From assembly GCF_000657795.2 (NCBI RefSeq), contig NZ_JHEP02000016.1, positions 1 to 64,000 of the forward strand: DNA of 64,000 nt, written 5' to 3'. This stretch comes from Bordetella pseudohinzii (lineage in GTDB: Bacteria > Pseudomonadota > Gammaproteobacteria > Burkholderiales > Burkholderiaceae_B). Below are positions 7,297 to 15,746 of this stretch, one piece after another. Numbering within the stretch: the first letter of the stretch is position 1; each line of letters opens with the position of its first letter. The position numbers and the translations under genes were made by a program. Below the pieces are notes generated by a model. That model saw nothing but the letters and a program-made list of their open reading frames with translations. It was not told the origin of the DNA and did no database searches.

Positions 7297-8391
7297 ATGA
7301 GTCAAGACCAACCCAAATTCCTGCTTGAGCGTCACCCGAATCCGGTGGCGCCCGCCGAGCGCGAGCGCCTGCTCCAGGACCCGGGGTTTGGCCGGATTTT
7401 CACCGACCACATGGCCACCGTGCGCTACAGCGCCGACCGCGGCTGGCATGACGCCAAGATCGTCGCGCGCGGCGATCTGAACCTCAACCCCTCGACCCTG
7501 GTGCTGCATTACGCCCAGGAGATCTTCGAGGGGCTGAAGGCCTATCGCCTGCCCGACGGCGGCGCGACGCTGTTCCGCCCCGACGCCAATGCGCGGCGCT
7601 TTCGTAACTCGGCCGCCCGTCTGGCCATGGCCGAGCTGCCCGAGGACCTCTTCGTCGAATCCGTCGAGGCCCTGGTGCGCCTGGAGCGCGACTGGATCCC
7701 CTCGGCCGACGGCGCTTCGCTCTACCTGCGCCCCTTCATGATCGCCACCGAGGTCGCGCTGGGCACCAAGCCGTCGGCCGACTATCTGTACGCCGTCATC
7801 GCCTCGCCCGTGGGCGCTTACTTCAAGGGCGGCGGTTCGGCCGTCACCATCTGGGTCTCCGACAACTACACGCGCGCCGCGCCCGGCGGCACCGGCGCGG
7901 CCAAGTGCGGCGGCAATTACGCGGCCAGCCTCCAGGCCCAGGCCGAAGGCGCGCGCGAAGGCTGCGACCAGGTGGTCTTCCTCGATGCGGTCGAGCGCCG
8001 CTGGGTCGAGGAGCTGGGCGGCATGAATGTCTTCTTCGTCTTTGCCGACGGCTCGCTGCAGACGCCGCCCTTGACCGGCACCATCCTGCCCGGCATCACC
8101 CGCGACTCGCTGATCACCCTGGCCCGCGACCTGGGCATGACGGTGCGCGAAGAACCGTATTCCATCGACCAATGGCAGGCAGACGCCAAGAGCGGCAAGC
8201 TGGTCGAGTCCTTTGCCTGCGGCACGGCCGCCGTGGTCACGCCCATCGGCCAGGTCAAGGGCCGCAAGCACGGCTTTACCATCGGCACGGGCGGCGCGGG
8301 CGACGTCACGCTGCGCCTGAAGGCCGCCTTGCAGGACATCCAGCGCGGCCGCAGCGCCGACAAGCACGGCTGGCTGCACAAGGTGGACTGA
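7297..8391 (+). CDS. ilvE: Branched-chain amino acid aminotransferase (type II)
   Basis: A 364-residue PLP enzyme that interconverts leucine, isoleucine and valine with their 2-oxo acids. The length and sequence follow the longer type II (mitochondrial-like) branch rather than E. coli IlvE. EIFEGLKAYR lies near residue 70, and the PLP lysine is Lys203 in AAKCGGNYAASL. GTAAVVTPIG occurs late in the protein, near residue 310. It has a GGAGAC ribosome site and its own terminator at 8434-8464, so it appears monocistronic. Confidence 0.95.
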   Translation: MSQDQPKFLLERHPNPVAPAERERLLQDPGFGRIFTDHMATVRYSADRGWHDAKIVARGDLNLNPSTLVLHYAQEIFEGLKAYRLPDGGATLFRPDANARRFRNSAARLAMAELPEDLFVESVEALVRLERDWIPSADGASLYLRPFMIATEVALGTKPSADYLYAVIASPVGAYFKGGGSAVTIWVSDNYTRAAPGGTGAAKCGGNYAASLQAQAEGAREGCDQVVFLDAVERRWVEELGGMNVFFVFADGSLQTPPLTGTILPGITRDSLITLARDLGMTVREEPYSIDQWQADAKSGKLVESFACGTAAVVTPIGQVKGRKHGFTIGTGGAGDVTLRLKAALQDIQRGRSADKHGWLHKVD

Positions 8392-8433
8392 AACCGCGCG
8401 CCCGGACCGCTTCCCGGAGCGGGGCGATGCGCC

Positions 8434-8464
8434 AAGCCTGAGCCCGCCGGCTCAGGCTTTTTTA
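8434..8464 (+). terminator. Rho-independent terminator of ilvE
   Basis: An 11-bp stem AAGCCTGAGCC / GGCTCAGGCTT (8434-8444 and 8449-8459) with a CGCC loop runs into a T tract. It stands 42 bp after the ilvE stop and separates ilvE from the convergent HPP-CBS gene. Confidence 0.92.
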
Positions 8465-8475
8465 TTGGCCGAGAC

Positions 8476-9585
8476 TCAGGCCGCCAGCCGCTGCGGCGCT
8501 TCCTGGGCCAGGGTCATCTGGTAGAGGGCGGCGATCAGGTCCGATTGGGTGATCAGGCCCTGCAGGCGGCCGGCCGCATCGAGCACGGGCACGCAATGCA
8601 GGCCGTCGGCCATGGGGCGCGCAAGCTCGACGGCGGGCAGGTCGGGCGTGGCGAAAGCGCCTTCGGAGCGCATGCATTCGGCCAGCGCCGCGCCGCGCGC
8701 CTGGCCGGCCAGGGCGTCATGCTCGGCCAGGAGGCCCAGGTATGCGCCGCTGGCGGTGTCGACCACGGGCAGCACGCCCAGGCGGTGGCGGCGCATGAGG
8801 TTCAGCGCGTGCTCCAGGTTGTCATGGGCGTGGAGGCTGACGACGTCGCGCGACATGATGTCGGCGCAATGGACCCTGCCGTGGCGGCGCGTCGCGGCGC
8901 GGGTTTCGGCCGCCAGGACGATGGCCTGCAGATCTTCTTCGCTGATGTCCAGCAATTCGTCGCGGGCCGCCAGGGTCTGGCGCAGGTCTTCGGGGGAGAA
9001 GCCCAGGCGTTGGCTGGGAATCGGATCGCGCGTCTGGTGCGGCGTGGCGCTGTCCTGCGGGCGCCGGGGGTAGTGGCGCTTGAGCAGGCCGTTGAAGGCG
9101 ATGGCGATGCTGACCAGCACCAGGGAGTTGATGCCCACCGGCCAGAGCGCGAAGCCAAAGCCCAGCTGGCTGACGGCGGGGCCGCCCAAGACGGCGGTCA
9201 GGGCCACGGCCCCGCCCGGCGGATGCAGGCAGCGCAGCGCGAACATGGCGGCGATGGCCAGGCTGCCGGCCATGGCGGCTGCCCAGGCGGTGTCGGGGAT
9301 ATACAGGGCGCAGGCCACGCCCACCAGGGCGGACACGATGTTGCCGCCCAGGATGGACCAGGGCTGGGCCAGCGGGCTGGCCGGCGCGGCAAAGAGCAGG
9401 ACGGCCGAGGCGCCCATGGGCGGAACGAACCAGGGACTGGCCTGGCCGAGGGCGTGGCGGCCTATCCATTCGGTGCACAGCAGGCCGAGCAGCGCCCCGA
9501 TGGCGCCGTAGCATTTTTCGCGGGGGCTGGCCCCCACGGGGACGGGGGCGAAGGCGCGCAACCAGTTGGCGAAGCGGGCAGACAA
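8476..9585 (-). CDS. HPP-family membrane protein with tandem CBS domains
   Basis: A protein of about 370 residues. The N-terminal half is the four-helix HPP domain, with the motif PPMGASAVLLFA and HPPGGAVALTA that gives the family its name. The C-terminal half has two CBS motifs (CADIMSRDVVSLHAHDNLE onward, and a second ending GLITQSDLIAALY) that usually bind adenine nucleotides. Plant and cyanobacterial HPP proteins transport nitrite. I prefer the TTG at 9585, which sits after GAGGAGAAAGTC. An ATG at 9633 would add 16 residues but lacks a ribosome site. Confidence 0.82.
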   Translation of the reverse strand: MSARFANWLRAFAPVPVGASPREKCYGAIGALLGLLCTEWIGRHALGQASPWFVPPMGASAVLLFAAPASPLAQPWSILGGNIVSALVGVACALYIPDTAWAAAMAGSLAIAAMFALRCLHPPGGAVALTAVLGGPAVSQLGFGFALWPVGINSLVLVSIAIAFNGLLKRHYPRRPQDSATPHQTRDPIPSQRLGFSPEDLRQTLAARDELLDISEEDLQAIVLAAETRAATRRHGRVHCADIMSRDVVSLHAHDNLEHALNLMRRHRLGVLPVVDTASGAYLGLLAEHDALAGQARGAALAECMRSEGAFATPDLPAVELARPMADGLHCVPVLDAAGRLQGLITQSDLIAALYQMTLAQEAPQRLAA

Positions 9586-9756
9586 GACTTTCTCCTCGTG
9601 GCCGGCCGGCCACGCGGGGGAGGACTGTAGCATGTGCGCCCAACCCGAATCTGAATAAGCTTATGACGCGCCGGCCGCGAGCTGGCGGGCGGGTCCGCAT
9701 TTTGGTTCAATCGGCAGGCCGTCCGCGGGGCGGGCGGCCGCTTCCAGGAGCATGCG

Positions 9757-10338
9757 ATGACGTCCTCTCATTTCCGGCCGGTGGCGCTTGAGCACGCCAG
9801 CCGCCTCATCAATCACGGCCCCACGGTCTTGATCACCACGCGCCATGGCGCGGTGCGCAACATCATGGCGGCGGCCTGGTCCATGCCGGTGGAGTTCACG
9901 CCGCCGCGCGTGTCGGTGGTGATCGACAAGCACACCTATACGCGCGAGCTGATGCAGGCCAGCGGGCATTTCGGCCTGCTGATCCCGGGCGCGGCGCTGG
10001 CGGACCTGACCTATGCGGTGGGCAGCGTGTCCGGCCGGCAGGGCGACAAGTTCGCGCGCCATGGCATCGAGGCTTTCGAGGGGCCGGCGCTGGGCCTGCC
10101 CCTGGTCGAGGCCGGCATGGCGGCCTGGATGGAGTGCCGCTGGATCCCCGAGCCGCATACCGAGGACGCCTACGATACCTGCTTTGCCGAGGTGTTGAGC
10201 GCGGCCGCCGACAGCCGCATCTTCGCGGACGGGCACTGGCATTTCACCGAGGCCAACCGCGAGCTGCACACCTTGCACCACCTGGGCGCGGGCAATTTCG
10301 CGGTGGCCGGCACGCCCATCAAGGCGCGCGGGGGCTAG
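9757..10338 (+). CDS. Flavin reductase-like (FMN-binding split-barrel) protein
   Basis: A 193-residue protein of the flavin reductase-like domain family (FMN-binding split barrel). PTVLITTRHGAVRNIMAAAW near residues 24-43 and PPRVSVVIDKHTYTRELM form the flavin-binding core, and FGLLIPG follows. Members use NAD(P)H to reduce flavin for partner monooxygenases or act as stand-alone flavoproteins of unknown role. No monooxygenase is adjacent. The ATG at 9757 follows CAGGAGCATGCG. Confidence 0.85.
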   Translation: MTSSHFRPVALEHASRLINHGPTVLITTRHGAVRNIMAAAWSMPVEFTPPRVSVVIDKHTYTRELMQASGHFGLLIPGAALADLTYAVGSVSGRQGDKFARHGIEAFEGPALGLPLVEAGMAAWMECRWIPEPHTEDAYDTCFAEVLSAAADSRIFADGHWHFTEANRELHTLHHLGAGNFAVAGTPIKARGG

Positions 10339-10425
10339 TCAGGCGGGCGCGGCGCTCAGGTGTTCGTGGAGAATGGCCGAGCCGATGGCGATGAGGGCCA
10401 GCCCGCCCAGGCTTTCGGCGGGATC
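10339..10425 (-). pseudogene. mntP: 3' relic of mntP (manganese efflux pump)
   Basis: Read on the minus strand, 28 sense codons end in TGA at 10341-10339. They encode LGGLALIAIGSAILHEHL flanked by a few residues, which is the last transmembrane helix and tail of MntP/YebN family pumps (compare the E. coli ending in AEILGGLVLIGIG). No start codon or upstream mntP sequence exists: the frame is closed at once by the TGA of the DUF2894 gene at 10426-10428. I read this as the C-terminal scrap left after a deletion joined mntP to DUF2894. The identity rests on my recall of the family sequence. Confidence 0.6.
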
Positions 10426-11022
10426 TCAGGGCGTGGATGCGGCCCGGCCCGGACGCCGCTTTGCCGGCTTGCCCGCGCTTGCCTTGGGCGTCGGCGCGGG
10501 CGCCGTGTTCAGGCGTTCCAGCCAGGACAGGGTTTCCACATAGGCCATGAACTGATGCAGATAGTCGGGCGAGAGCGCGCGCATGTGCGACAGCGCCCGG
10601 TGCACCAGGTGGTCGGAGTTCAAGGGGCCGGCGTTCTCCGGCAATTGCTCCAGGGATTGGCGCAGCTGCTGGTCGGCGCTCAGGCGCGTCCAGATGGCGC
10701 GGAAGGCGTCCAGCAGCGGCAGCTCGGGGTAGTGCTCGCGCAGCTCGCCGGGCGGCATCGCGGCGCGTTCGGCGATATGCGCCAGCAGGTCGGGCAGCGC
10801 GCTGGCGGCCGTGGCGGGCGGCTCGGCCGCGGCCGGCGTTTCGGCCAGGCGGGCATCATAGTCTTCGATGAGGCGCGCCAGCTTGTCTTCGACCACCTGG
10901 CGCGCGCCGCCCGTGAGCTGGCCGGCGCGCCGCGCCAGGGCCTCGAGCAGGGCGAAACGCACCGGGTCGGCGCGATGGGCGCCCTGCTCGCGCCAGGCCT
11001 GCAGGCGGGCCGCGCTATCCAC
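10426..11022 (-). CDS. DUF2894 domain-containing protein
   Basis: A 198-residue, alanine- and leucine-rich, probably helical cytosolic protein ending in a Lys/Arg/Pro-rich tail. It is the fourth gene of the DUF3348-DUF802-OmpA-DUF2894 operon, and DUF2894 proteins are known from this context. I place the start at GTG 11022, which overlaps the OmpA stop by eight bases (GTGGATAG); a longer reading frame upstream is wholly inside the OmpA gene. Function is unknown. It is presumably an accessory or regulator of the membrane motor encoded just before it. Confidence 0.8.
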   Translation of the reverse strand: MDSAARLQAWREQGAHRADPVRFALLEALARRAGQLTGGARQVVEDKLARLIEDYDARLAETPAAAEPPATAASALPDLLAHIAERAAMPPGELREHYPELPLLDAFRAIWTRLSADQQLRQSLEQLPENAGPLNSDHLVHRALSHMRALSPDYLHQFMAYVETLSWLERLNTAPAPTPKASAGKPAKRRPGRAASTP

Positions 11023-11671
11023 CCGCGCTGCCTTCGGGCTGGCCGGCGCCGGTCTGGCGCGGCACCGGCGCGATTTCCACGCGGCGATTCTTGGCCCGGC
11101 CCTCGGCATCGGCATTGGAGGCCACGGGCTGCTGCGCGCCGAAGGCCGCCGCGAACAGCGTGTTGGCGGGCACGCCGGCCTCGATCAGCGCGCGCGTGAC
11201 GGTCAGCGCGCGCTGGGCGGAGAGGTCCCAGTTGTCGGCAAAGCGCCGGTTGAACTCGCTGACGGGCTGGTTGTCGGTAAAGCCGCTGACCATCAGCATC
11301 TCGTCGCGGTTGCGCAGATAGGCCGTCAGCGGCGCGGCCAGGCTCTTGAGCACGTCGCGTCCTTCAGGCTGGAGCTGGTCGGAATTCAGCGCGAACAGCA
11401 CGCTGCCGCTGATGCCGATGCGGCCGTCGACCAGGGTCACGCGGCCGGCGGCCAGCGGGCCGGCCAGGGCCTGCTCCAGCGTCTCGCGCCGCTGCGTCTC
11501 GGCCTGGCGCTCCTTGACCTCTTCGTCCAGCTTGACCGAAAGCTGCAATTGCAGGCCGATGATGCCCACCAGGATGAGCACGAAGGCGCCCAGCAGCACC
11601 GACATCAGGTCGCCAAAAACCGCCCAGGCGGGGGCCGGGGTGTCCGGGCCGGCGTCGAGCTCGTCTCTCAT
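11015..11671 (-). CDS. OmpA/MotB-like peptidoglycan-binding stator subunit (ZorB-like)
   Basis: A 218-residue protein with a short cytosolic N-terminus and one transmembrane helix (about 16-44) preceded by FGDLMSVLL; Asp21 sits where MotB and ZorB carry the proton-binding aspartate. A coiled stretch (45-75) and a C-terminal OmpA domain follow, with SGFTDNQPV, NWDLSAQRALTV and NRRVEI, the peptidoglycan-binding residues. It overlaps the MotA-like gene by four bases (ATGA at 11668-11671). Together they should form an ion-driven inner-membrane stator anchored to the cell wall. Defence, motility or another role is not shown. Confidence 0.88.
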   Translation of the reverse strand: MRDELDAGPDTPAPAWAVFGDLMSVLLGAFVLILVGIIGLQLQLSVKLDEEVKERQAETQRRETLEQALAGPLAAGRVTLVDGRIGISGSVLFALNSDQLQPEGRDVLKSLAAPLTAYLRNRDEMLMVSGFTDNQPVSEFNRRFADNWDLSAQRALTVTRALIEAGVPANTLFAAAFGAQQPVASNADAEGRAKNRRVEIAPVPRQTGAGQPEGSAGG

Positions 11672-14493
11672 GCGGCCTCGGCGCCGTCGCGGTTGAGCTG
11701 CCGCAGTTCATGCATGATCTGCTTTTGCGACAGCAGGGAAAGATCGACGACCTCGCGGGCCTGGGCCACGTAATAGGCCAGCTGCTCATCGCTGCGGGCC
11801 AGCGACTTGGCCAGCGCCGATTCGATGCGCTCCAGCTGGGCGACCAGCTTGACGTTGGTTTCGTCGAACAGGCGCACGGCCGCGCCCAGGGCTTCGCCCA
11901 GGCTTGCGACCTCGACCGCGCTGCCGGTGACCTGGTCGGCCACGGCGCCCAGCTTGCCGGTCTCGCCTTCGACGTGTTCAGTGAAACGCCGGCCCACGCG
12001 CTCGAGCAGTTCGGACGAGGAGGCCACCAGCGCATCCACCGCGCCGCGCTGTTCGTGGCTGGCGTGGTTGATGGCCTTGAGCAGTGTATCCACGGTGTCC
12101 AGGAGATGGCCGCGCTCCTGCAGCATGGCGTTGTCGCGCGCCATGCTGTCGGAGAGCTGCTGGCGCAATTCGGCCAGCATGCCGGCGGCGGCCTTGGGCG
12201 CTTGCGAGGCGGCTTCCAGCAGGCGCTCGATCTCGGCGATCATGCGCTCGGACTGCGCCGCGGCCTGGGTCGTGAGGCCGCCGACGGCGGCCGAGAAGTT
12301 GTCGCAGATCTCCTGCTGACGCGCCAGGGTGCGGTTGCCGGTGTCTTCCCATTCGGCGCGTAGCGCCGCGGCCACGCCGGCCAGCGATTCGGTCCAGGCG
12401 GCCAGGCGCGCCTCGTCGCGCGCCGCCAGTTCGCCGTGCAGGCGGCCATGGGCCTGATCGACCGTGGCCAGCAGCGAGGCCGAGTGGCCTTCGAAGCGTT
12501 CGGCCGCCGCATCCAGGGCGGCGCGGTGGGCGTCGGCCAGCGCGCCGCTGGCCGCATCGTGGCGCGCCAGGGCTTCGTGCCAGGCCTGGGCCAGTTGCTC
12601 GGTGGTCTGGTCCATGCGGGCGGCGACCTGGTCGACCAGACCGGCCGAACGGGTCTCGAACGCCGTCGCGAAGCCATCCAGCGTCTCGCGCAGCCGCGCG
12701 GCCAGCTGGGCCTGGCCCTGCGCCTGGTCGGCCAGGGCGGCCTGCCAGCCCCGCAGGGCGCCGGCCGTGCCTTCGGAGACGGCCAGGGCCGCGCCGTCCA
12801 GGCGGGCGGCGATGTTGTCGACGAGGCTGCCGGAGCGCGCCTCGAAGGTGGCGCAGAAGTGTTCCAGCGCGGCGCGCAGCCCCTGGGCCGCGTCCTGCTG
12901 GCCGCGCTGCTGCTCGCCCAGCGCCGCCTGCCAGGCGCCCAGGGCGGACTGCACATTGCCGGCGATGGCGCCGGCCGTGCCGTCCAGGCGCAGGCCCACG
13001 CTGTCGACCAGGGCCGTGGCGCGGCTGTCGAAGCCCGTGCTGAATTGCTCCAGGGCCTGGCGCAGGTCCCCGGTCAGGGCGGCCTGGGCCGTCTGCTGTT
13101 CGGCCAGCGCGGCCTTCCAGATGTCGGCCACGCCGGCCGTGGTGGCCGCGACGCTGTCGGTGGTGCTGGTCAGGCGAGCGGCCACGTCGTCCAGCAGGCG
13201 GGCCGAGCGGGTTTCGAAGGTGGCGGCAAAGCGGCCCAGCGCGGCGTCGAGCGCTTCGGCCTGGGCGGCCTGTCCCTGGCGCTGCCGGTCCAGCGCCTCG
13301 CTCCAGGCCTGGGCGGTGGCCTGCGAGCTGGCGGCCAGGGCCGAGGTGGTGTGCTCCAGGCGGGACGAGACATCGGTCAGCAGGGCCGAGGCGCGCTGCT
13401 CGAAGCCGGCGGCGAAGTGTTCCAGCGCTCCGCGCAGGTCCTGGTTGAGCGCCTGGTTGGCCGTGGCCTGGCCGGCCAGGGCCTGGGTCCAGTGGCCGGC
13501 CAGGGCCGCGCTGGTGTGTTCCAGGCGCTCGGACAGGCGGTCCATCTGCTGCTGCAGGGCCTGGGTGACGGTGTCGCGCCAGGCGGTGGTCTCGCGCGCC
13601 AGCGTCTGCATGGCGCTCTGCACGGCGGGCTGGATGGCCGCGCCGGCGGCCTGGGCGCTTTCGGCCACGCTGTGCGTGAGCGCGGTTTCCACCGAATCGG
13701 CCAGCCGGCCGTAGACGGCCTCGGTCTTGCCGTGGAAGGCTTCCTGGCCGGCCAGCAGGCGCTGGTTCAGGGCCTGGCTCTGGCTTTCCATCGCGGCCAT
13801 CATGGCCGCCAGTCGGTCGGCCAGCAGCGGCAGGGCCTCGGCCTGGCCGCGCAGCAGCTTGAAGCTTTCTTCGCGCTGGTGGGCCAGCGAATAGCCGCGC
13901 AGCGTCGTGGCGGCCTTGGTGTCGAGGTATTCGCCGGCCTGCAGGCGGGCGCGGCGGCACAGGGCCGACAGCAGGCCCAGCATGGCCGAGGCCGCGACCC
14001 CGGCCACCGAGGTGCCGAAGGCAAAGCCCAGGCCCTTGACCGGCGCGGCCAGCGAGGCGCGCATGGCGGTCAGGTCGGTGGCGCTTTCGAGGGCCAGGCC
14101 CGTGCCGCGCAGCGTCGCCACCATGCCCAGGAAGGTCCCCAACATGCCCAAGAGCACCAGCAGGCCCACCAGATAGGGGGTGAGGGCGGGGCCGGGCAGG
14201 CCGGCGCGTTCGCCCTCGATGCGCAGCCTGGCCGCATTGCGCAGGCTGGGATGCAGGCCGTCCAGCCAGCTGCCCAGCTGCGCCGGCGCCTCGGCCAGGC
14301 CCTCCAGGGCGCGCGTCAGGCCGCGCGTGGCCTGCTGGTAGCGCAGCAGTTCCAGGGCGCCGGCCAGGTAGCAGACCCCGATCAGGGCGGTGATGGACAG
14401 GGCCAGCGGATTGCTGCCGATGTAGCCGGCGCCTATCCAGCCGATGGCGGCCAAGCCCGCGAGGAAGACGATGAGGGGGAGGATGCGAGTCAT
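11668..14493 (-). CDS. DUF802 protein: MotA/ExbB-like membrane domain with long repeat tail (ZorA-like)
   Basis: A 941-residue protein. Two hydrophobic helices (about 4-22 and 30-50) and a MotA/TolQ-type pair follow: GMLGTFLGMVATLRG (115-129) and KGLGFAFGTSVAGVAAS (about 150-166). The rest is a very long, alanine/glutamine-rich, predicted helical tail. From residue 357 there are five copies of a unit exactly 62 residues long, each starting LEHFAATFE-like and containing R(S/A)..LLDDVAARLD and W..AL..Q. As I recall, DUF802 is itself described as a repeated region. The ATG at 14493 was chosen because the membrane helix starts at once; an upstream ATG at 14556 lies within the preceding gene. The architecture is that of ZorA. 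Confidence 0.88.
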   Translation of the reverse strand: MTRILPLIVFLAGLAAIGWIGAGYIGSNPLALSITALIGVCYLAGALELLRYQQATRGLTRALEGLAEAPAQLGSWLDGLHPSLRNAARLRIEGERAGLPGPALTPYLVGLLVLLGMLGTFLGMVATLRGTGLALESATDLTAMRASLAAPVKGLGFAFGTSVAGVAASAMLGLLSALCRRARLQAGEYLDTKAATTLRGYSLAHQREESFKLLRGQAEALPLLADRLAAMMAAMESQSQALNQRLLAGQEAFHGKTEAVYGRLADSVETALTHSVAESAQAAGAAIQPAVQSAMQTLARETTAWRDTVTQALQQQMDRLSERLEHTSAALAGHWTQALAGQATANQALNQDLRGALEHFAAGFEQRASALLTDVSSRLEHTTSALAASSQATAQAWSEALDRQRQGQAAQAEALDAALGRFAATFETRSARLLDDVAARLTSTTDSVAATTAGVADIWKAALAEQQTAQAALTGDLRQALEQFSTGFDSRATALVDSVGLRLDGTAGAIAGNVQSALGAWQAALGEQQRGQQDAAQGLRAALEHFCATFEARSGSLVDNIAARLDGAALAVSEGTAGALRGWQAALADQAQGQAQLAARLRETLDGFATAFETRSAGLVDQVAARMDQTTEQLAQAWHEALARHDAASGALADAHRAALDAAAERFEGHSASLLATVDQAHGRLHGELAARDEARLAAWTESLAGVAAALRAEWEDTGNRTLARQQEICDNFSAAVGGLTTQAAAQSERMIAEIERLLEAASQAPKAAAGMLAELRQQLSDSMARDNAMLQERGHLLDTVDTLLKAINHASHEQRGAVDALVASSSELLERVGRRFTEHVEGETGKLGAVADQVTGSAVEVASLGEALGAAVRLFDETNVKLVAQLERIESALAKSLARSDEQLAYYVAQAREVVDLSLLSQKQIMHELRQLNRDGAEAA
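12496..13425 (-). repeat. Five 186-bp in-frame repeats in the DUF802 gene
   Basis: Units begin at 13425, 13239, 13053, 12867 and 12681 (minus strand), each 186 bp or 62 codons with no length variation. DNA identity is only moderate, so the periodicity is kept at protein level: a LE.F...FE.R start, LLDDVAARLD in the middle and WQAAL.EQ..GQ before the end. A diverged half-unit precedes the first copy. Constant spacing suggests a rigid helical rod. Confidence 0.85.
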
Positions 14494-14503
14494 GAGGGCC
14501 TGA

Positions 14504-15199
14504 TTAGCGGGCGCGAAGGGCCGCAAGCAGCCCCTCGACCGGTTGTAGTCGAACATCCAGTTCGGCGAGCAATACGCTCTGCATGTCCTTGCGGAAACGC
14601 TCTAGCCAGCCGCCCCGGCGGGCGTCGGGCTGTTCCGCCGGCGCGGCCGCTTCGGCCTCGCGCAGGCGGTTGAAATGCTTTTCGAGCAGCCCCGGCACGG
14701 CCGCCAGCAGGCTGCGCTCTCGCGGCAGCAGGCCGCGCTCCATGATGGCGTCCATCACGGCCAGCTGCGTGAGCGCCGGCGTGCTGGCCGCCAGCGTGGC
14801 GCGCAAGCGCGTGCGCAGGTTGCCGATGCGCGTCTCCATGGTCTGCTGCAGGGCCAGGTAAAGCTGCCGGTAGGTCTTGTAGTCGTCTTCGGCGGGCGCG
14901 TCCTTGGCCTGGAACGGCGAGGGGCCGCGCTGCTTGATGTCGCGGGCGATGGCGTTGGACAGGCCGGCGCGCAGCAGGATGAGGTCGCGCTCCTGGACGC
15001 GGTCCAGGCGGGCCTCGCCGGGCACGGGCTTGCTGTTGAGCGCCGCGGCCAAGGCGAGGCCGTCGGTCCAGCCCAGCCATTGGCTGAGATGGTCCGACAG
15101 GAGTTGGCCGGATTCGGGAACATCGGCGTCGGTCAATCGGGTCAGCAGACGGATGAAAGCCGGTCCGCCGACGCCGGGGCGCCGGGACGATTGCACCAT
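14504..15199 (-). CDS. DUF3348 domain-containing protein
   Basis: A 231-residue, probably cytosolic, helix-rich protein and the first gene of the four-gene motor operon (10 bp before the MotA-like gene). A conserved start FIRLLTRLTDADVPES leads into LSDHLSQWLGWTDGLALA. A central basic region contains LRTRLRATLAASTPALTQLA. DUF3348 is known almost only from Betaproteobacteria and always, as far as I recall, beside DUF802. Function is unknown. It has no membrane segment or nuclease motif that would match the ZorC-E effectors of Zorya. Confidence 0.85.
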   Translation of the reverse strand: MVQSSRRPGVGGPAFIRLLTRLTDADVPESGQLLSDHLSQWLGWTDGLALAAALNSKPVPGEARLDRVQERDLILLRAGLSNAIARDIKQRGPSPFQAKDAPAEDDYKTYRQLYLALQQTMETRIGNLRTRLRATLAASTPALTQLAVMDAIMERGLLPRERSLLAAVPGLLEKHFNRLREAEAAAPAEQPDARRGGWLERFRKDMQSVLLAELDVRLQPVEGLLAALRAR

Positions 15200-15327: not shown

Positions 15328-15708
15328 GCGATAGACCTCGGCCCGCGCCTGCTGTAATTCGTGCCTGGCCTCGTCCAGCTTGCGCTGCGCCTTGGCGATG
15401 TCCTTGACCTTGCCTTCGGCTTTTTCTTCGGCCAGTTCGGCCTCGCGCTCCTTGACCTTGGCCTCGGCGGCGCGGACCTTGTCCTCGCGTTCGCGCTGCA
15501 GCTGGGCGTCATTGCAGTCCTGCGAGGCCGACAGGGCGCGCTCCAGGCCGCGCAGCCGCTGGGTATTGCCGGTTTCACGCGCGTAGGCGATCTCGCGCTC
15601 GATGGCCTGCTTCTTGGCCGCGCAGCCGCGCGGCACCTCCTGGGCCTGGGCGGCCGCGCTGCCCAGGCAGAGCGCCAGGGCCAGGGGGGCGTGCTTGATG
15701 AATGACAT
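15325..15708 (-). CDS. DUF1090 (YqjC-like) periplasmic protein
   Basis: A 127-residue protein with a clear signal peptide (hydrophobic ALALCLGSAAAQAQ, cleavage near residue 25). The mature part is highly charged and coiled-coil forming, with two cysteines (RGCAAKK and SQDCNDAQ) that likely form a disulfide. This matches E. coli YqjC and the DUF1090 family, whose function is unknown. The ATG at 15708 follows GAGGAAGCCGGC; an earlier in-frame ATG at 15735 would spoil the signal peptide. Confidence 0.88.
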   Translation of the reverse strand: MSFIKHAPLALALCLGSAAAQAQEVPRGCAAKKQAIEREIAYARETGNTQRLRGLERALSASQDCNDAQLQREREDKVRAAEAKVKEREAELAEEKAEGKVKDIAKAQRKLDEARHELQQARAEVYR

Positions 15709-15746
15709 GCCGGCTTCCTCCGCGTCAAAAGCCAAGCATACCGGTC

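Follow-up and report, generated by a model that had tools for sequence, protein, structure and literature searches.

Zorya types I and II have a 5:2 core and a rod built from the ZorA tails, and changing the ion-site aspartate, the peptidoglycan binding or the tail abolishes protection, as given in the available text of PMC11890865. The ion-site aspartate of type II is D21 (PMC11890865, same text). Zorya type III was defined in 2021, with PADLOC, by the DUF3348 and DUF2894 families, and 6,401 type III gene pairs were counted (PMC8565338). When placed in Escherichia coli, a type III operon of Stenotrophomonas nitritireducens lowered the plaquing of at least one phage, and the only role proposed for DUF3348 and DUF2894 in the available part of that report is regulation of ZorAB (PMC8565338). 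Upon infection of B. cenocepacia, transcription of a Zorya III operon changes at its first one or two genes, and the authors leave Zorya III off their list of transcriptionally active systems (PMC12584637, available text). Sources use the names ZorF and ZorG in opposite senses; both papers that use them call DUF3348 ZorF and DUF2894 ZorG, and PADLOC-DB labels DUF3348 ZorG3 and DUF2894 ZorF3.

The locus analyzed here is a genuine and well-formed operon of Zorya type III and thus belongs to a known kind of system. It probably encodes an anti-phage machine in which a peptidoglycan-anchored, ion-driven stator docks its partners at the tip of a long tail, and it has probably been inherited mostly by descent.

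Gene organization and identification of the operon

The window, which is the whole 64,000-nucleotide stretch of DNA that was analyzed, contains four genes on the minus strand (15199 to 10426) in the order DUF3348-ZorA-ZorB-DUF2894. The DUF3348 gene (14504..15199, 231 aa) matches Pfam PF11828 (E 4.1e-87) and PADLOC ZorG3 (E 1.6e-86). A 10-base gap separates it from the ZorA gene (11668..14493), whose 941-aa product combines a MotA/TolQ-type core with a long tail; the longest open ZorA frame (962 aa) begins within the DUF3348 gene, and the 941-aa form starts at 14493. The ZorA stop codon overlaps the ZorB start by four bases (ATGA). ZorB (11015..11671, 218 aa) matches PADLOC ZorB3 (E 1.2e-114) and the Pfam OmpA domain PF00691 (E 1.5e-19), and its stop codon lies within an 8-base overlap with the GTG of the last gene. 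The longest open frame of the DUF2894 gene is 229 aa (11115-10426), and the start is placed at GTG 11022-11020 because several homologues begin there. The resulting putative gene (10426..11022, 198 aa) matches PF11445 (E 4.1e-53) and PADLOC ZorF3 (E 1.1e-71).

All four proteins match PADLOC Zorya type III models, with ZorA reaching 1296.6 bits against ZorA3, and Pfam DUF802 matches ZorA in six stretches (E 6.8e-70). The S. nitritireducens operon consists of the same four families, in which DUF3348 and DUF2894 flank zorA and zorB (PMC8565338, available text). Of 80 named loci, 76 have the order DUF3348-ZorA-ZorB-DUF2894; 75 show it directly in the gene calls, and the other is L111, whose over-long ZorA frame overlaps DUF3348. 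The remaining four meet a contig edge upstream. The named loci, which are the 80 with the best scores out of at least 585, are biased towards near relatives, and all counts based on them are limited accordingly. NCBIfam's three antiphage ZorA models gave 15.9-30.5 bits, under their cut-offs of 100-250, and appear not to cover type III. Because ZorA stays below these cut-offs and the best NCBIfam match of ZorB is a 'hypothetical protein', NCBI annotation would probably not label the operon as Zorya.

ZorA and ZorB also give weak profile matches to Zorya types I and II (PADLOC), as a type I or II system that had lost ZorC, ZorD or ZorE might. Such decay is so improbable that it can nearly be set aside, given that the type III models score far higher, that the partner genes keep their order and that ZorC, ZorD and ZorE find no match at E 1e-5 among the 50 other window frames. 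Membership of Zorya type I or II was rejected on this last result. In the same 50 frames, mad3, CARF5--CARF_ADA, 2OG, mad8 and PDC-S06 (PADLOC) each match one frame and are taken as generic; no other defence system was recognized within the window.

A flagellar, Tol or Exb stator paralogue with an extended tail would share membrane and OmpA-type domains of the same kind. This explanation is very improbable: Pfam PF01618 (MotA_ExbB) detects four other proteins of that family in the genome and not ZorA, and the ZorA3 models give more than 990 bits on the 941-residue protein. Membership of the flagellar MotAB stators was likewise considered and rejected, and no flagellar gene was found among ten flanking genes scanned with Pfam. 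The flagellar complex is alike in stator architecture and in its OmpA-type domain; to our knowledge, it has no giant tail.

The initial annotation had read this anatomy correctly and had not recognized the Zorya type. The four genes that it described as joined by short gaps and overlaps were found as open frames on the minus strand, and the absence of ZorC, ZorD and ZorE from the window frames and of flagellar genes from the scanned flanks was borne out. The proposed ZorAB-like motor with different partners holds in that the partners are those of type III and not ZorC, ZorD or ZorE; they are not new, having been published in 2021 (PMC8565338, available text).

Two loci depart from the intact form. 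In a Cupriavidus locus (L092:6878-8786), the DUF3348 frame has only 167 aa and the ZorA frame 348 aa although neither meets a contig edge, which may reflect assembly error or decay. In another genome of the same genus as the window (L016 in G005, about 7761-11032), ZorA is open (931 aa), DUF3348 is not detectable, ZorB ceases to match beyond residue 112, and of DUF2894 no more than the end is retained in the same frame. This locus is a degenerate operon copy at the same site.

The ZorAB stator core

ZorB contains one predicted membrane helix (residues 22–40) and an OmpA-type domain. Asp21, which the initial annotation had placed at the proton-site position, is encoded by codon 11611-11609, lies at the edge of the helix and is kept in 81/81 ZorB proteins (the window and 80 named loci, the best 80 of at least 585); its loss from homologues, named in the initial annotation as a refuting result, is thereby excluded in this set. 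In the same set, five residues of the OmpA-type domain, D133, R154, N195, R196 and R197, are each present in 81/81 proteins. Four of them (D133, R154, R196 and R197), equated by motif and not by superposition with residues mutated in type I, support putative peptidoglycan binding by the OmpA-type domain.

The most conserved part of ZorA is the channel core, residues 101–180 (13954..14193, minus strand), with majority-residue frequencies of 0.88-0.97. Conservation was calculated as the mean majority-residue frequency per 20-residue block over 95 proteins, with three genomes counted twice. A conserved GTS at residues 160–162 may form a polar ring. The core matches that of the solved type I ZorA (PDB 8VVN) at E 2.1e-6. 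The Shewanella type I ZorAB resembles the Bordetella proteins in the ZorA core, the ZorB ion-site aspartate, the peptidoglycan domain and the long tail, but its partners are ZorC and ZorD, and its ZorA has 696 aa in 8VVN. Type I-like ZorA was found in nine genomes (best E <1e-20) with best-match frames of 563-781 aa, one of which passes the model cut-off; a tenth genome with a 224-aa fragment was left out. Zorya type II (PDB 8VVI) has a similar ZorAB core with its ion-site aspartate, D21, at the same position as in Bordetella, but its partner is the nickase ZorE and its ZorA is shorter, the tail spanning residues 100–378 in Sulfuricurvum (PMC11890865, available text).

The ZorA tail and its repeat units

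The giant ZorA tail, described in the initial annotation as about 770 residues, was confirmed at about 760 residues after the membrane core. It is presumed to be cytoplasmic and is helical in character, with a hydropathy period of 3.66. This period is the strongest in 63/97 ZorA frames and 3.64 in 14/97, values that we take to be those expected of an 11-residue coiled coil. The distal part, residues 762–921 (11731..12210, minus strand), forms a conserved tail tip with frequencies of 0.76-0.91 and a maximum in residues 902–921. Blocks measured between core and tip give frequencies of 0.34-0.76 (residues 341–641 unaligned). Within this region, the variable tail middle, residues 321–700 (12394..13533, minus strand), has frequencies of 0.34-0.66 in the blocks measured (321–340 and 642–701, with 341–641 unaligned) and shows self-similarity repeats at lags of 62 and 124, then 55. 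Compared with the shortest recurrent type III form, in which ZorA has about 697 aa, the Bordetella protein has 941 aa and contains the 62-residue repeats.

Tail length was counted from the residue equivalent to 101 through the C-terminus. The core was found in 97 of 100 ZorA frames, drawn from the window, 19 family genomes and the 80 named loci (best 80 of at least 585). Dropping the short L092 frame left 96 lengths from 93 distinct genomes, since L015/L053, L018/L054 and L017/L122 are identical sequences. Members of Dyella, Rhodanobacter, Xanthomonas, Burkholderia, Paraburkholderia, Trinickia and Variovorax repeatedly show a base length of 596-597. Lengths within 2 of 597+87k make up 43/96, a figure inflated by kinship, compared with 5.5 expected if uniform, and 53/96 fall outside; with each length counted once, 11/51 are within 2 compared with 2.9 expected. 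Internal repeats are strongest at a lag of 87 in 25/97 frames, of 62 in 14/97 and of 131 in 9/97.

The ZorA tails of close relatives differ by whole repeat units of 62, 87 or 174 residues. The most similar pair was taken for each of five length-class pairs in Burkholderia, Paraburkholderia and Caballeronia, and all five align with a single clean gap each. The gap is 87 residues in L080/L102 (91% identity), L066/L082 (95%), L082/L068 (81%) and L063/L065 (96%), and 174 residues in L057/L074 (96%). Compared with the window ZorA, that of L018 has an additional piece of 62 residues and that of L014 one of 124 residues. In DNA, the gap relative to L014 is 372 bases in the window and 186 bases in L018, and neighbouring repeat units reach 96% identity. 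Strains compared agree in length: 710 residues in three Paraburkholderia caribensis and three related records, and 926 in both of two Cupriavidus metallidurans. The tail-length state (base or longer) changes 14 times on the operon tree. No description of ZorA3 tail repeats was found in the titles or abstract openings of the open PMC papers listed. Natural ZorA tails that are one or two units apart at 91-96% identity are ready-made tests of tail length in Zorya signalling, and this unit-wise tail is worth following together with the near-fixation of the operon in several genera.

Partner proteins and proposed mechanism

AlphaFold2 predicts DUF3348 as an all-helical bundle (mean pLDDT 86.4, pTM 0.82) and DUF2894 as helical with a low-confidence basic C-terminal tail (mean pLDDT 79.8, pTM 0.43). 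The last 25 residues of DUF2894 carry a net charge of +3 or more in 79/80 named loci (best 80 of at least 585). Matches in fold comparison of the two proteins did not exceed the level that helical bundles commonly give, and no solved relative of either was found by sequence. Since the comparison stayed at this background, the operon shows no enzyme-like effector, which is weak evidence for the absence of one.

By analogy with types I and II, an ion-driven stator of five ZorA and two ZorB chains would sit in the inner membrane. Its ZorB chains would grip peptidoglycan disturbed by an infecting phage, the ion flow would pass Asp21, and the bundle of ZorA tails would turn or rearrange in the cytoplasm. 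The tail middle would act as a tolerant shaft, its length shifting by whole repeat units, and the conserved tip may be the docking site for DUF3348 and DUF2894, which may be adaptors built of helices. Through its basic tail, DUF2894 may contact nucleic acid or recruit a host factor, a role suggested because neither partner gave an enzyme-like match.

Deviating forms of DUF3348 were also observed. In genomes G204 and G205, the DUF3348 profile matches in three stretches each, as if interrupted by insertions. Weak DUF3348-like stretches in another family of the order (G275:C2:1211789-1212199 and G405:C1:1473838-1474245) have E values of 4.1e-5 and 5.4e-6 as a pair and lie in frames of 453 and 460 aa, respectively; they are a possible distant variant.

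Distribution across genera and replicons

Among 268 same-family genomes, DUF3348 was detected in 98 and DUF802 in 100, and the operon is apparently single-copy. The counts per genus refer to the larger genera, coded g1 onwards, whose full membership was read or inferred from handle order (G108 was put in g10 by inference). DUF3348 is present in 10/15 genomes of the window's own genus (g1), 41/43 of g2, 9/9 of g8, 6/6 of g9, 10/11 of g31, 4/4 of g34 and 0/10 of g3. The two g2 genomes without it are 57% and 78% complete. In the same genomes, the control restriction gene HsdR_N is found in 6/15 (g1), 18/43 (g2), 3/9 (g8), 2/6 (g9), 4/11 (g31), 4/4 (g34) and 7/10 (g3). The spread of DUF3348 is thus unlike that of this patchy gene in most genera compared; g34 provides no contrast because HsdR_N is also present in 4/4. 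Mixed genera are g1, g33 (two genomes with DUF3348 and at least one nearly complete genome without) and g42 (one with and at least two without). The near-fixation in several genera raises the question of whether a system classed as accessory defence belongs to the ordinary biology of these bacteria.

DUF3348 occurs in 17/43 genera of the family, and an order-wide sample gave 25/399 positive genomes (24 over the cut-off) in 19/159 genera. It was detected in 27 of 72,556 plasmid records, and all of the 25 matches listed are on records of at least 588,872 bases. None of 50,697 phage records contained DUF3348, and the 30 pattern matches for it in viral contigs were not confirmed. On a Paraburkholderia megaplasmid, the operon adjoins fusA_3, whose annotation is elongation factor G (L137:10505-12550).

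Descent and genomic neighbourhood

The operon tree was built from the window and 75 of the 80 named loci (best 80 of at least 585), leaving out L092 and four loci without DUF3348. The two orders, Burkholderiales and Lysobacterales, are split by one change. Five families need five changes (minimum four), and 16 genera need 24 (minimum 15; shuffled mean 50.4). Operon and RpoB distances correlate at 0.60 over 19 genomes and at 0.88 over nine genomes of the genus, and in each case 0/5000 permutations were as high. Descent has not been strict, because the exact rpoB topology fails the AU test for the operon (p 0.002, with a program warning of too few replicates) and because the operons of three Bordetella subclades are 63-67% identical, compared with 94-97% for RpoB. 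The flavin reductase, HPP/CBS and FUSC flanking genes are common only to the B. hinzii-like subclade among the loci fetched. Together, the tree, the correlations, the AU rejection, the subclade divergence and the flanks suggest that inheritance was mainly by descent and that some replacement or relocation took place long ago, so that the operon looks mostly inherited in the relatives compared. The same locus lies in G003, a single 3.7-Mb contig, and B. hinzii is 96% identical; the host is judged to be a Bordetella close to B. hinzii and, from the single-contig relative, the operon to be chromosomal.

A housekeeping cell-envelope motor, for example one that senses or repairs peptidoglycan stress, with the protection in E. 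coli as a by-product of overexpression, would fit the near-fixation in several genera, the apparent single copy, the absence of DUF3348 from phage records and of confirmed matches in viral contigs, the large size of all plasmid records among 25 of 27 listed, and an operon tree that tracks orders and nearly families. It would also fit the ten flanking genes, of which nine resemble transport, metabolism or regulation genes and one is a DUF1090 gene (Pfam). This account is nonetheless unlikely, since most genera are without the operon (17/43 in the family and 19/159 sampled in the order have it), which indicates that it is dispensable, and one genome of the genus (G005) holds the degenerate copy. 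Anti-phage activity was moreover measured for the homologous operon (PMC8565338, available text), and the Bordetella copy may protect likewise.

A further reading, possible but doubtful, is an old clade-core chromosomal motor that was inherited in the two proteobacterial orders rather than a mobile defence system, and that may serve envelope surveillance as much as phage defence. Its torque or signal shaft would be tunable in length, with a lineage-specific setting: channel and tip would stay fixed and the shaft would grow by whole coiled-coil modules, not as a fixed ruler but perhaps to fit the geometry of the envelope or the partners. An anti-phage Zorya type III operon inherited mostly by descent remains the preferred interpretation. 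Points against it are the NCBIfam scores under the cut-offs, the omission of Zorya III from the list of transcriptionally active systems (PMC12584637, available text), a distribution unlike that of HsdR_N in most genera compared, the lack of another recognized defence system in the window, the departures from strict descent, and the short L092 frames and degenerate G005 copy.

The DUF1090 gene is the immediate upstream neighbour of the operon and has the same orientation (window 15328-15735). In a comparison of 20 family loci, homologues of its product were seen in L014, L015, L018 and L021.
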